Assembly: GCA_016786465.1 (NCBI GenBank)
Contig: JAEUWC010000028.1
Span: 1 to 62,390, forward strand
From: Bdellovibrionales bacterium
GTDB taxonomy: Bacteria > Bdellovibrionota > UBA1018
DNA length: 62,390 nt
Direction of reading: 5' to 3'
Of this stretch, positions 10,638-13,709 are shown piece after piece. The position numbers and the translations under genes were made by a program. Within the stretch, counting starts at the first letter, position 1, and every line of letters begins with the position of its first letter. Below the pieces are notes generated by a model. The model searched no databases. It saw only the letters and a list, made by a program, of their open reading frames with translations, and had not been told where the DNA came from.

Positions 10638-11399
10638 ATGGTGAAATTCACGCTGGTCTTATCGGGTTTGCTGGTCACTTTAACGGCTGCGGCTTCGCAG
10701 CCCAGTTATCAAGTCATTTCCGATGTCGACGACACTTTGAAATACGCCAACATTCAGAACAAGTTGGCCGCGGGCTGGAATGGCCTTTTCACTTCTAAGG
10801 AATTTGCGGGTTCCAGTGAATACATGCAGGCCGTGGTCGACGCACAAGCCAAGGTGAATTTCGTTTCTTCGACCCCTGAATGGTTACGCGGCAAGATCAA
10901 TCGATTCATCAAAAAACACGGCTTTCCAGATACCCGCGTGTTTTTGAAAAAGAAGATGAGCGACGATACCTATACCTATAAAACGGCTAAAGTGGCCGAA
11001 GTCGCTGGCGAAGGATCGGAACCTTTGGTGCTGATTGGCGATGATGTTGAAGTCGACGCAGAAGCCTTTACCGACTTCGCAAAACAAAATCCAAGCCGTG
11101 TTGCCGCAGTCTACATTCGCCGTGTTCGCAACCGTGCGCTGCCTTCTGGCGCGATTCCATTTACGACCTTTTTCGAAGTCGCACTTCGTGAATACCTGGC
11201 CGGACGTATCGAATTGGATGGCTTGGCTTCTGTTGCATCTGCAGTTTTGCAGGCCAAACACAAACTGGTCGTGCCTCGGTTCGGTTCGTGTGCGTCCCCG
11301 CAATCAGCCTTGGCCACAGACGATTTGACGCGGACCTTGGAATCCATGGTGAACGATCGAGTGGTTCAGGTCTGCCGCGATCACAAGCATCGAAACTAA
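10638..11399 (+). CDS. Secreted App1-like phosphatase (DUF2183, HAD-type)
   Basis: A 253-residue exported protein with signal peptide of about 19 residues. It shows SDVDDTLK near the N-terminus of the mature chain and LIGDDVEVDAEAF later. These match the DxDxT nucleophile motif and the distal acidic motif of App1/DUF2183 phosphatidate phosphatase-like HAD enzymes. VNFVSSTPEW fits the conserved motif II region. This suggests hydrolysis of phospholipid-derived or other phosphomonoesters in the periplasm. The substrate is inferred from the family only. Confidence 0.8.
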   Translation: MVKFTLVLSGLLVTLTAAASQPSYQVISDVDDTLKYANIQNKLAAGWNGLFTSKEFAGSSEYMQAVVDAQAKVNFVSSTPEWLRGKINRFIKKHGFPDTRVFLKKKMSDDTYTYKTAKVAEVAGEGSEPLVLIGDDVEVDAEAFTDFAKQNPSRVAAVYIRRVRNRALPSGAIPFTTFFEVALREYLAGRIELDGLASVASAVLQAKHKLVVPRFGSCASPQSALATDDLTRTLESMVNDRVVQVCRDHKHRN

Positions 11400-11409
11400 A
11401 CTGATTTTT

Positions 11410-11428
11410 GATATTGATAATCATTATC
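11410..11428 (+). promoter_or_regulatory. Near-consensus Fur box
   Basis: GATATTGATAATCATTATC matches the classical 19-bp Fur operator at 18 of 19 positions. It sits 26 bases before the ATG of the small gene at 11455, in a 55-base intergenic gap. It therefore probably places the downstream short genes under iron-dependent repression. Confidence 0.85.
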
Positions 11429-11454
11429 AACTTAGATAGGTTTGAATCAGGTCT

Positions 11455-11691
11455 ATGATTCGAACCAAACACCTTTTCATGAATGGGGACGGATTCGACA
11501 TCGAAATGAATCCGAACGGTGTGGTTCAGGTTTCTTTCGGCGCCACTCATGTCTGCATGAATTTGGAAGCCGCTATGGATTTGCGCCACCTCTTGGCCAA
11601 ATTTCTGACCGAAATTGAAGTGAACGAAGCTGCCCGCCCAGTTCACACGCCGTCGAACGTGGTGCTCTTGCCTGCCCGCAAGCAGCACTAA
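11455..11691 (+). CDS. Small protein downstream of a Fur box
   Basis: A 78-residue protein with no signal peptide or membrane segment. It reads as a compact alpha/beta domain (FDIEMNPNGVVQVSFG, then a helical MDLRHLLAKFLTEIEV) with a flexible His/Lys-ending tail. The AGGT upstream is a weak SD. It is the first gene after the Fur box, so iron-regulated expression is likely. No family is recognised; the strong operator and orderly spacing favour a real gene. Confidence 0.6.
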   Translation: MIRTKHLFMNGDGFDIEMNPNGVVQVSFGATHVCMNLEAAMDLRHLLAKFLTEIEVNEAARPVHTPSNVVLLPARKQH

Positions 11692-11708
11692 GTTCGGCGG
11701 CACTCTCT

Positions 11709-11736
11709 TTGCTCCTGTCGCGGAACAAAGGAGCAA
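11709..11736 (+). promoter_or_regulatory. Hairpin masking the ribosome-binding site of the 97-aa gene
   Basis: TTGCTCCT (11709-11716) is perfectly complementary to AGGAGCAA (11729-11736), with a 12-base loop. The right arm contains the AGGAG Shine-Dalgarno sequence of the gene starting at 11741. If it forms in mRNA it would block initiation, giving possible translational control. Confidence 0.5.
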
Positions 11737-11740
11737 TTCA

Positions 11741-12034
11741 ATGCTAAATAAAATCGTTCAATGGTTAGGTTTCGTCTCTGCTTTTGGCTCAACGGCCCAG
11801 GCGGCTGGCTTCGATTCAGTTCAAACCCCGGTCTTATTTCACGGCCAACAATCGGCGACTCTTTGTGTTCCCGTCCCTTCGGATCAATTGACCCTGCGTC
11901 CGCCGACCCATCCAGTTTCGGGTGGTCCGGAAACGGGACACTTGGTTCGGGAACTGTACGAAAACATCATTCGCCAGGGCACAGCGATTCGTGAATGCGG
12001 TTACACCGTCTGCGACGGCAACGGCAGTAAATGA
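11741..12034 (+). CDS. Small secreted Cys-containing protein
   Basis: A 97-residue protein with signal peptide ending at TAQAA. The mature part is about 75 residues, Pro-rich in the middle, with three Cys. Two of them are in the C-terminal ECGYTVCDG, a possible disulfide or metal site. AAGGAG lies just upstream of the ATG. It overlaps the next gene by 4 bp (ATGA). Lying in a probable Fur-controlled cluster, it may serve metal handling, but no family is recognised. Confidence 0.65.
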   Translation: MLNKIVQWLGFVSAFGSTAQAAGFDSVQTPVLFHGQQSATLCVPVPSDQLTLRPPTHPVSGGPETGHLVRELYENIIRQGTAIRECGYTVCDGNGSK

Positions 12035-12471
12035 ACGTGCCGGGGCTCGGTGCCAGAAATCAGGTCATTTCGGTTTTTCTTCGAGAATTCGATCTTCCGC
12101 GCGCGGAAGCGGAATTGATTTTTGATGATTTGCTGAAATGGCTGGAAATCTGCCGGCACCCCAGTCGGCCTGCGATCTTTCCGTGCATGTACGGGATTGA
12201 TCAAATGTGGCACAGCTTCATTCTTTGCACTCGGGCTTATGCTGAATTCTGCGCTGACCGATTCGGGGATTTTGTTCATCACGAACCCGCAGTCAAAGAA
12301 GCGCCCTTACTCGACCATCCATCAGCGGTTCAGAATCATGAACAGCTGATGGCTACAATCCAGCGGGTCGTCGACTGCTGGGGTCCTGCCGTCGCGACCC
12401 GTTGGTTTGGGGGCGAAAGTCCGGTCTGGGGACGCCGCCGAATCGAAGGCCTGAGACGGAGGTTCGAATGA
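12031..12471 (+). CDS. Protein with a WHSFIL...YAEFC...HH motif
   Basis: A 146-residue soluble protein. The segment IDQMWHSFILCTRAYAEFC followed by FGDFVHHEP resembles the conserved block of the family annotated as glycine-rich domain-containing protein-like (DUF1399-type), in which a Trp-His pair and a downstream His-His recur. The His/Cys content could form a metal site. It is coupled by ATGA overlaps on both sides, to the small secreted protein and to the GNAT protein, so the three are probably cotranslated. Function unknown. Confidence 0.65.
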   Translation: MNVPGLGARNQVISVFLREFDLPRAEAELIFDDLLKWLEICRHPSRPAIFPCMYGIDQMWHSFILCTRAYAEFCADRFGDFVHHEPAVKEAPLLDHPSAVQNHEQLMATIQRVVDCWGPAVATRWFGGESPVWGRRRIEGLRRRFE

Positions 12472-12923
12472 CCCAATTGATTTGGGAATCGGTCGATCCT
12501 TCCTGTTTTCGTGAAAAAGTAGCGGACTTCTACGCCGAAGAATTTGGGCGAATTCTGCCAGAAATGAAGCGAAAGGACTGGATCCGCTGGAAGCATTTCT
12601 TACTTTGGTCGGTTGGCAGTGAAAGGGCCCTGGTGGGCTGGCACTTTGGAAAATCTGCCGGCCCCGACCGGTTCTATCTGGCCAATACCTGCATCCTGCC
12701 GGCCTTTCGAGGCCAGGGAATTTACCAGGCGGCGATGCCTTTGCTTTTCCGAAAACTGCAAAAGTTGGGATTTCGAACAGTCGTCAGTCGCCACCTGGCT
12801 AAGAATTGGACCATTTTGCATTTGAAACAAAAACAGGGGTTTAGGAAAACCCGGGAAGACCAGCCCACTGCCGGCGGACTTGGGACAGAATGGTCACTTG
12901 CCCTGACCGAATCGTCGCGATAG
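12468..12923 (+). CDS. GNAT-family acetyltransferase
   Basis: A 151-residue GNAT-fold protein. TCILPAFRGQGIYQAAM matches motif A (the R/Q-x-x-G-x-G/A acetyl-CoA pyrophosphate loop), and LGFRTVVSRHLAKNWTILHLKQKQGF matches motif B. The ATG at 12468 overlaps the previous stop (ATGA) and is preferred to an in-frame ATG 22 codons upstream. It is the last gene of the presumed Fur-regulated cluster. The acetyl acceptor is unknown. Confidence 0.8.
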   Translation: MTQLIWESVDPSCFREKVADFYAEEFGRILPEMKRKDWIRWKHFLLWSVGSERALVGWHFGKSAGPDRFYLANTCILPAFRGQGIYQAAMPLLFRKLQKLGFRTVVSRHLAKNWTILHLKQKQGFRKTREDQPTAGGLGTEWSLALTESSR

Positions 12924-12932
12924 TCGAAAGTC

Positions 12933-13709
12933 ATGCTTCATTTGACGGCTTACCGTTTTATCCGCCTTCAGGATCTTCCGGCCTTGAAGGCCCGAATCCT
13001 AGACCTTGCTCGCAACCTAGGGTTGATGGGCACTGTTTTGCTGGCCGAAGAAGGCGTCAACATCCAGGTTTCGGGCACGGAAGACGCGATCTCCAGCTTC
13101 AAGGATTTTTGTCGCGAAAACTTCCCCGGTGTCGAAGATGCGTTCAAGGTTGCACAAGTTCCCAAGCACGTCTTTCCCAGGTTCTTGGTCCGAATCAAAA
13201 AAGAAATCATTTCCCTAGGTATTCCCGATGTCAGACCCGACCAGTTCACGGGCCCAAGGATTCAGGCGCAAGAACTGAAAAAGTGGCTGGACGAAGGTCG
13301 GCCTGTGACGCTTTTGGATACGCGCAACGAATACGAAGTTCGGGTCGGAACTTTTCGCGGGGCTGAAAGTTTTTCAATCGATTCGTTCCGAGAATTCGGC
13401 GCCAAGGCTAAACAGATCGCCCAAGATCCCCGATTTCAAGACCGTCCAGTCGTTTCTTTCTGTACAGGCGGGATTCGCTGCGAAAAAGCCAGCGCCCTAT
13501 TGATCCAGATGGGACTTAAAGACGTCTACCAGTTGGATGGTGGGATCATTCGATATTTTGAAGAAGTAGGTGCAGAACATTTCGAAGGCAGCTGCTTCGT
13601 TTTTGACGGGCGTGAAGCTGTGGATGGGGACCTCAATCCGGTTCCAAGATCGGATCAGCCTGACGAACAATTCGGACGATACAAAAGATCCTTGAATTGG
13701 GTCGGGTGA
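12933..13709 (+). CDS. trhO: tRNA uridine(34) hydroxylase TrhO (rhodanese-type)
   Basis: TrhO/YceA hydroxylates U34 of certain tRNAs on the path to cmo5U/mo5U. The N-terminal acylphosphatase-like domain (LLAEEGVNIQVSG, FPRFLVRIKKEIISLG) and the rhodanese domain (LLDTRNEYEVRVGTF, catalytic Cys in FCTGGIRCEKAS, YQLDGGI) are in canonical order. At 258 residues it lacks the long C-terminal Cys-rich tail of larger homologues. A 4-bp GTGA overlap links it to the next membrane-protein gene. Confidence 0.92.
   Translation: MLHLTAYRFIRLQDLPALKARILDLARNLGLMGTVLLAEEGVNIQVSGTEDAISSFKDFCRENFPGVEDAFKVAQVPKHVFPRFLVRIKKEIISLGIPDVRPDQFTGPRIQAQELKKWLDEGRPVTLLDTRNEYEVRVGTFRGAESFSIDSFREFGAKAKQIAQDPRFQDRPVVSFCTGGIRCEKASALLIQMGLKDVYQLDGGIIRYFEEVGAEHFEGSCFVFDGREAVDGDLNPVPRSDQPDEQFGRYKRSLNWVG

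Follow-up and report, generated by a model that had tools for sequence, protein, structure and literature searches.

A Fur box with a 78-residue gene beside a putative RiPP-like gene trio containing an uncatalogued protein family in a Bdellovibrionales bacterium

RESULTS

We lean toward reading this locus as two modules lying side by side, namely, a Fur box with a 78-aa gene and a RiPP-like trio encoding a candidate precursor peptide, a protein of a family that we call MWH, and a GNAT acyltransferase (Table 1). The genes lie in a 62,390-nucleotide stretch of the genome (contig JAEUWC010000028.1), the whole of which is referred to here as the window. A preliminary description of this DNA had presented a single cluster of four small genes behind an 18/19 Fur operator, with ATGA overlaps linking the last three, and had proposed a possible iron-starvation response in which a small secreted metal binder is accompanied by a maturation factor and an acetyltransferase. 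The operator is present with the first of the genes just downstream, and the four open reading frames were confirmed, as were the overlaps at 12031 and 12468 that join the 97-aa, 146-aa, and GNAT genes. Furthermore, the acetyltransferase has both the Pfam match (PF00583) and the fold of a GNAT, and the peptide, its putative maturation factor, and the acetyltransferase form a real module that occurs in seven genomes, the window's own included.

Table 1. Features of the locus and its flanks (positions in the window)
Feature	Position	Strand	Remarks
APP1-type phosphatase	10638..11399	+	Upstream neighbor; ends 10 nt before the Fur box
Fur box GATATTGATAATCATTATC	11410..11428	.	18/19 match to the Fur 19-mer
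78-aa protein	11455..11691	+	Bdellovibrionota family usually directly behind rpsD; outside the conserved trio
RNA hairpin, 22 bp	11649..11701	+	Over the end of the 78-aa gene, including its stop codon; without a clean U tract
97-aa candidate precursor	11741..12034	+	Sec-like signal and C-terminal ECGYTVCDGNGSK; good SD (AAAGGAG)
Predicted signal peptide MLNKIVQWLGFVSAFGSTAQA	11741..11803	+	Sequence reading; 21 aa, AQA site
Putative core RECGYTVCDGNGSK	11990..12031	+	Aligned with the CG motif of other trio peptides
146-aa protein, MWH family	12031..12471	+	Uncatalogued family; candidate maturase or leader-binding partner
MWH signature D57-x-M-W-H61-x-F ... Y70 ... C74 ... H83-H84-x-P86	12199..12288	+	Alignment of 57
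GNAT acyltransferase, 151 aa	12468..12923	+	Pfam and structure
trhO (tRNA uridine hydroxylase, rhodanese)	12933..13709	+	Starts 10 nt after the GNAT stop

The order peptide, MWH, GNAT was found in the genome of the window, in G048, in four Bdellovibrio-like species (G191, G193, G201, and G211), and in G253. G048, which belongs to the same order as the window's bacterium, encodes a peptide of 61 aa that ends in ...KECGYVTGGKV, followed by an MWH protein of 151 aa and a GNAT of 146 aa. The peptides of the Bdellovibrio-like species and G253 bear an evident signal sequence (tails such as YRTCGAGSHGGDGDPV), and MWH and GNAT follow them. When the trio label was mapped onto a tree of 75 MWH proteins, it required 2 changes, compared with a shuffled mean of 6.8 (0/500 as low), and the nearest row to the window protein was that of G048. 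The GNAT and MWH trees neither show nor exclude a single origin of all trios. In another genome (G197, locus L161), the GNAT is kept and no intact MWH or precursor gene was called, so that the trio has apparently decayed. Downstream, trhO, which lies outside the conserved module and is not beside the trio in G048, is possibly cotranscribed.

In the 97-aa protein, sequence reading points to a modest Sec-like signal; the protein contains three cysteines. A hydrophobic stretch and an Ala at the predicted cleavage site aligned in all seven trio peptides, the signal of the window peptide being the weakest, and Cys86 and Gly87 are invariant (7/7); this dipeptide and the Ala are all that the seven have in common. 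Identity between lineages is 14 to 25%, and a TCGxGSHGxxxDPV-type tail is almost constant across the four Bdellovibrio-like species. The SD of the 97-aa gene sits within a short inverted repeat (TTGCTCCT...AGGAGCAA, positions 11720 to 11750), a possible means of translational control.

A scan of genome contigs retrieved 60 relatives of the 146-aa protein from many phyla, including Bdellovibrionota, Bacteroidota, Myxococcota, Cyanobacteriota, Planctomycetota, and Pseudomonadota. Residues D57, W60, H61, F63, Y70, H84, G118, and W125 are invariant in the 57 aligned sequences, with C74 (56/57) and H83 (51/57) nearly so, and the family can be searched for with the pattern D..WH.F......Y..FC....F...HH.P. 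Pfam and NCBIfam gave no convincing match for the 57 aligned members, a PDB sequence search with the family gave no match, and no description of the family was found in open-access papers, the latter being weak evidence of absence. The AlphaFold model of the 146-aa protein is confident and all helical (pLDDT 88.5), and Foldseek and VIA-align searches of the PDB with it returned only weak helical-bundle matches (best E value of 0.51 and Z score of 3.2), so we make no claim about the fold. Judging from conservation, D57, H61, C74, and H84 probably form a metal site. Catalysis by MWH is a guess, since homologues with a known function were not detected and the fold matches were not strong, and the protein could be only a leader-binding partner.

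In the loci that we read, tiny open reading frames encoding a hydrophobic LIxxLIxK leader and a Cys-rich tail lie just upstream of MWH genes (e.g., MKNDLIEKILTKRRAQGCRPKCCAWIR, MKQDLISKIMKANIHNACTPKCCAVF, and ESKHELIERLLKKADLDFKCCG), with the same layout across unrelated genomes. The preliminary description had suggested looking for small Cys proteins beside relatives of the 146-aa protein, and such an association was found: an SD-preceded short open reading frame with a late Cys lay directly upstream of 27/67 MWH genes against 20/323 other genes of the same loci, and a peptide with the leader motif and Cys lay within 500 nt in 33/69 MWH loci against 8/217 control genes, ratios that are descriptive because the peptides had already been spotted when the two tests were devised. 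Thus, the pairing of a short precursor with a candidate maturase gene, by which RiPP loci are recognized, is seen for the MWH family in the latter comparison and for the window in gene order and the C-terminal CG. Where Bdellovibrionota MWH genes neighbor tiny peptides, no gene for another maturase adjoins them, which leaves MWH as the only maturase candidate there. The ultra-short frames in front of Bdellovibrionota MWH genes (26 to 30 aa, e.g., MKEKLITKILKERKACGCKPKCCLWKRY) are probably unannotated; they occur at L136:3484-3576, L142:3478-3585, L145:2888-2998, L140, L141, L143, L144, and L146.

Other MWH genes have further neighbors. The MWH gene of Aquimarina agarilytica (L088) is flanked by a ...KGGCC... 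peptide on one side and by the grasp-with-spasm maturases on the other (TIGR04192, 4.6e-99; TIGR04193, 2.5e-97), and L091 and L094 look similar. At L073, L059, L089, and L093, the MWH gene is followed by an ABC-transporter-like gene, with no precursor identified at these loci, and in those of Kosakonia and Pseudomonas also by a JmjC/cupin-type gene (Pfam match run for L073). In a relative (G041), YcaO-like, heme-oxygenase-like, and GNAT genes lie together (L033:2826-5112), possibly as a second RiPP-like locus.

The window GNAT matches its Pfam family at 22.0 bits (cutoff, 20.7), and its structure retrieved 617 PDB chains at E values of ≤0.001. Among solved GNATs, RimI-type and small-molecule acetyltransferases come closest to it in both sequence and fold. 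Genes of a closely related GNAT family are common across the phylum (69/369 genomes) in unrelated contexts, and a RiPP-specific GNAT subfamily was therefore rejected.

The Fur box is the sole site in the window with three or fewer mismatches to the Fur 19-mer (0.01 expected per window). The whole genome holds three such sites and a single FUR-family protein (PF01475, E value of 1.4e-30). Of the other two, one precedes a bacterioferritin-like gene that adjoins a Bfd-like gene, at a distance of about 100 nt, and one lies upstream of a c-type cytochrome/ApbE-like pair (names by sequence reading); these neighbors fit a real Fur regulon. Two TonB-plug proteins are encoded in the genome.

A profile of the 78-aa family, built from three weak relatives and run on 369 Bdellovibrionota genomes, detected it in 22 of them, 21 besides the window's own. 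In most of the genomes inspected, the member lies directly downstream of rpsD (S4), in the form without N-terminal cysteines; the alpha-operon copy in the window's genome has them. The proteins behind this second-type rpsD are about 75 to 95 aa long (L165, L166, L167, and L168-L183). Fur-like boxes lie 33 to 53 nt upstream of the rpsD-78-aa pair in three relatives of the window's genome (G015, 14/19; G024, 14/19; G047, 15-16/19) and are absent before the pair in the Bdellovibrio-like genus. The pair looks like a metal-starvation operon and, given the boxes in these three relatives, the window Fur box belongs most naturally to the 78-aa gene. The preliminary description had treated the four genes as one unit and had held that their separation in relatives would speak against it. 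The 78-aa gene is indeed separated from the others in about 20 further genomes, where it follows rpsD, and a conserved four-gene cluster was consequently rejected.

The iron theme did not hold as a shared trait of the trio either. The best Fur-box matches at the six other trio loci are 12-13/19, and none of 58 scanned wider MWH-family loci exceeds 14/19, so Fur control as a family trait was discarded. In the window, the 78-aa and 97-aa genes run in the same direction with a gap of 49 nt, and the hairpin region folds at -48.6 kcal/mol over a 106-nt stretch (z score of -5.45; 0/200 shuffles); the hairpin may terminate or attenuate transcription or serve as a site of processing. In this genome only, the trio might come under iron control if transcription from the Fur promoter reads through.

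DISCUSSION

Under the two-module reading, the first module would supply a small cytoplasmic protein under the control of Fur, from a family found alongside rpsD in relatives. In the second, the 97-aa protein would be a ribosomally made precursor that carries a Sec signal at its N terminus, which is unusual. The MWH protein would bind it and, via the putative metal site, modify or prepare the Cys of the C-terminal ECGYTVCDGNGSK; the GNAT may acylate an amine of the peptide, and Sec would then export the product to the periplasm, with trimming possible. Against the RiPP-like part stand the distance of the window peptide from the tiny peptides (it is longer and has a Sec-like signal, the weakest of the seven), the abundance of related GNATs elsewhere, and trees that do not show a single origin of the trios. 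A broader version, which we put forward only tentatively, is that MWH is an unnamed multiphylum family of RiPP maturases, small helical metalloenzymes acting on Cys of precursors of about 26 to 60 aa, of which the window would hold a Sec-exported, GNAT-acylated variant captured by a Fur promoter.

It is important to consider how other readings fare against the same observations. If the trio were read from the Fur promoter during iron starvation, the modified periplasmic peptide could bind iron or buffer another metal, in keeping with the good Fur box, the iron genes beside the other Fur sites, the single FUR protein, the TonB-plug proteins of the genome, and the close, codirectional placement of the 78-aa and 97-aa genes; metal binding is also possible for Cys-rich Sec-exported RiPPs (PMC12452194). 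However, Fur-like boxes go with the 78-aa family instead, with none above 13/19 at the other trios or above 14/19 in the wider family, a strong hairpin precedes the trio, and the cluster has no TonB receptor or transporter, so a metallophore or metal-binding role is unlikely. It is very improbable that the three genes came together by chance and that the 97-aa product is an ordinary secreted protein: order and spacing are alike in at least seven genomes, C86-G87 is invariant, the tail is almost constant in the Bdellovibrio-like species, and start and stop codons are coupled, even if the low peptide identity between lineages would agree with it.

The role of MWH itself is a separate matter. The family may be nonenzymatic, working as a chaperone that binds short secreted peptides or as an immunity-like partner to them, with the GNAT acylating MWH or an unrelated target. 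Such a role would suit an all-helical fold without a known catalytic match, as well as MWH genes in loci that already have maturases (grasp-with-spasm, or JmjC with an ABC transporter in Kosakonia), where the catalyst may be another protein. Nevertheless, we find it rather doubtful, as the invariant D/H/Y/C/H set within 28 residues resembles a metal or active site and the tiny-peptide Bdellovibrionota loci offer no other maturase candidate.

In our view, these results are most interesting for the MWH family, which is uncatalogued, and for the hidden peptides beside it. The peptides are probably overlooked by most gene callers because of their shortness, and the MWH pattern beside short Cys open reading frames provides a simple search handle. 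If MWH is a maturase, a large hidden set of cysteine peptides would be opened up, including in predatory bacteria, where the products could act on prey or serve in metal supply.

Grasp-with-spasm is a recognized RiPP system, and some of its loci contain MWH genes beside ...GGCC... peptides; in contrast, the trio has no ATP-grasp or SPASM gene, and its precursor has a Sec-like signal. Among known families, only a distant MWH relative (L014) resembles the GRDP-like PF07173, over the D..WH...Y...C region (E value of 0.0025; 18.9 bits, below the cutoff of 22.7), whereas the window protein and the 57 family members gave no PF07173 match at an E value of 0.1, and the window protein has no glycine-rich domain. 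No known RiPP maturase was found among the trio genes of the window with Pfam and NCBIfam, and no MNIO (DUF692) match was found in the six window genes searched. Sec-signal precursors are rare among RiPPs and are best documented in MNIO-modified bufferins, which buffer copper (PMC12452194). Like bufferins, the trio combines a Cys precursor, here with a predicted Sec-like signal at its N terminus, with an adjoining partner protein in a small operon (PMC12452194); it differs in having no MNIO or DUF2063-type gene among the genes at its loci, an MWH protein without a Pfam match, a GNAT, and no link to copper. Were a precursor outside the MNIO group exported by Sec, that unusual route would be more general. 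Finally, although the trio has no azole or dehydratase genes, it resembles the goadsporin system in encoding a GNAT alongside a ribosomal precursor, and in that system, the GNAT GodH finishes the RiPP (PMC5303826).
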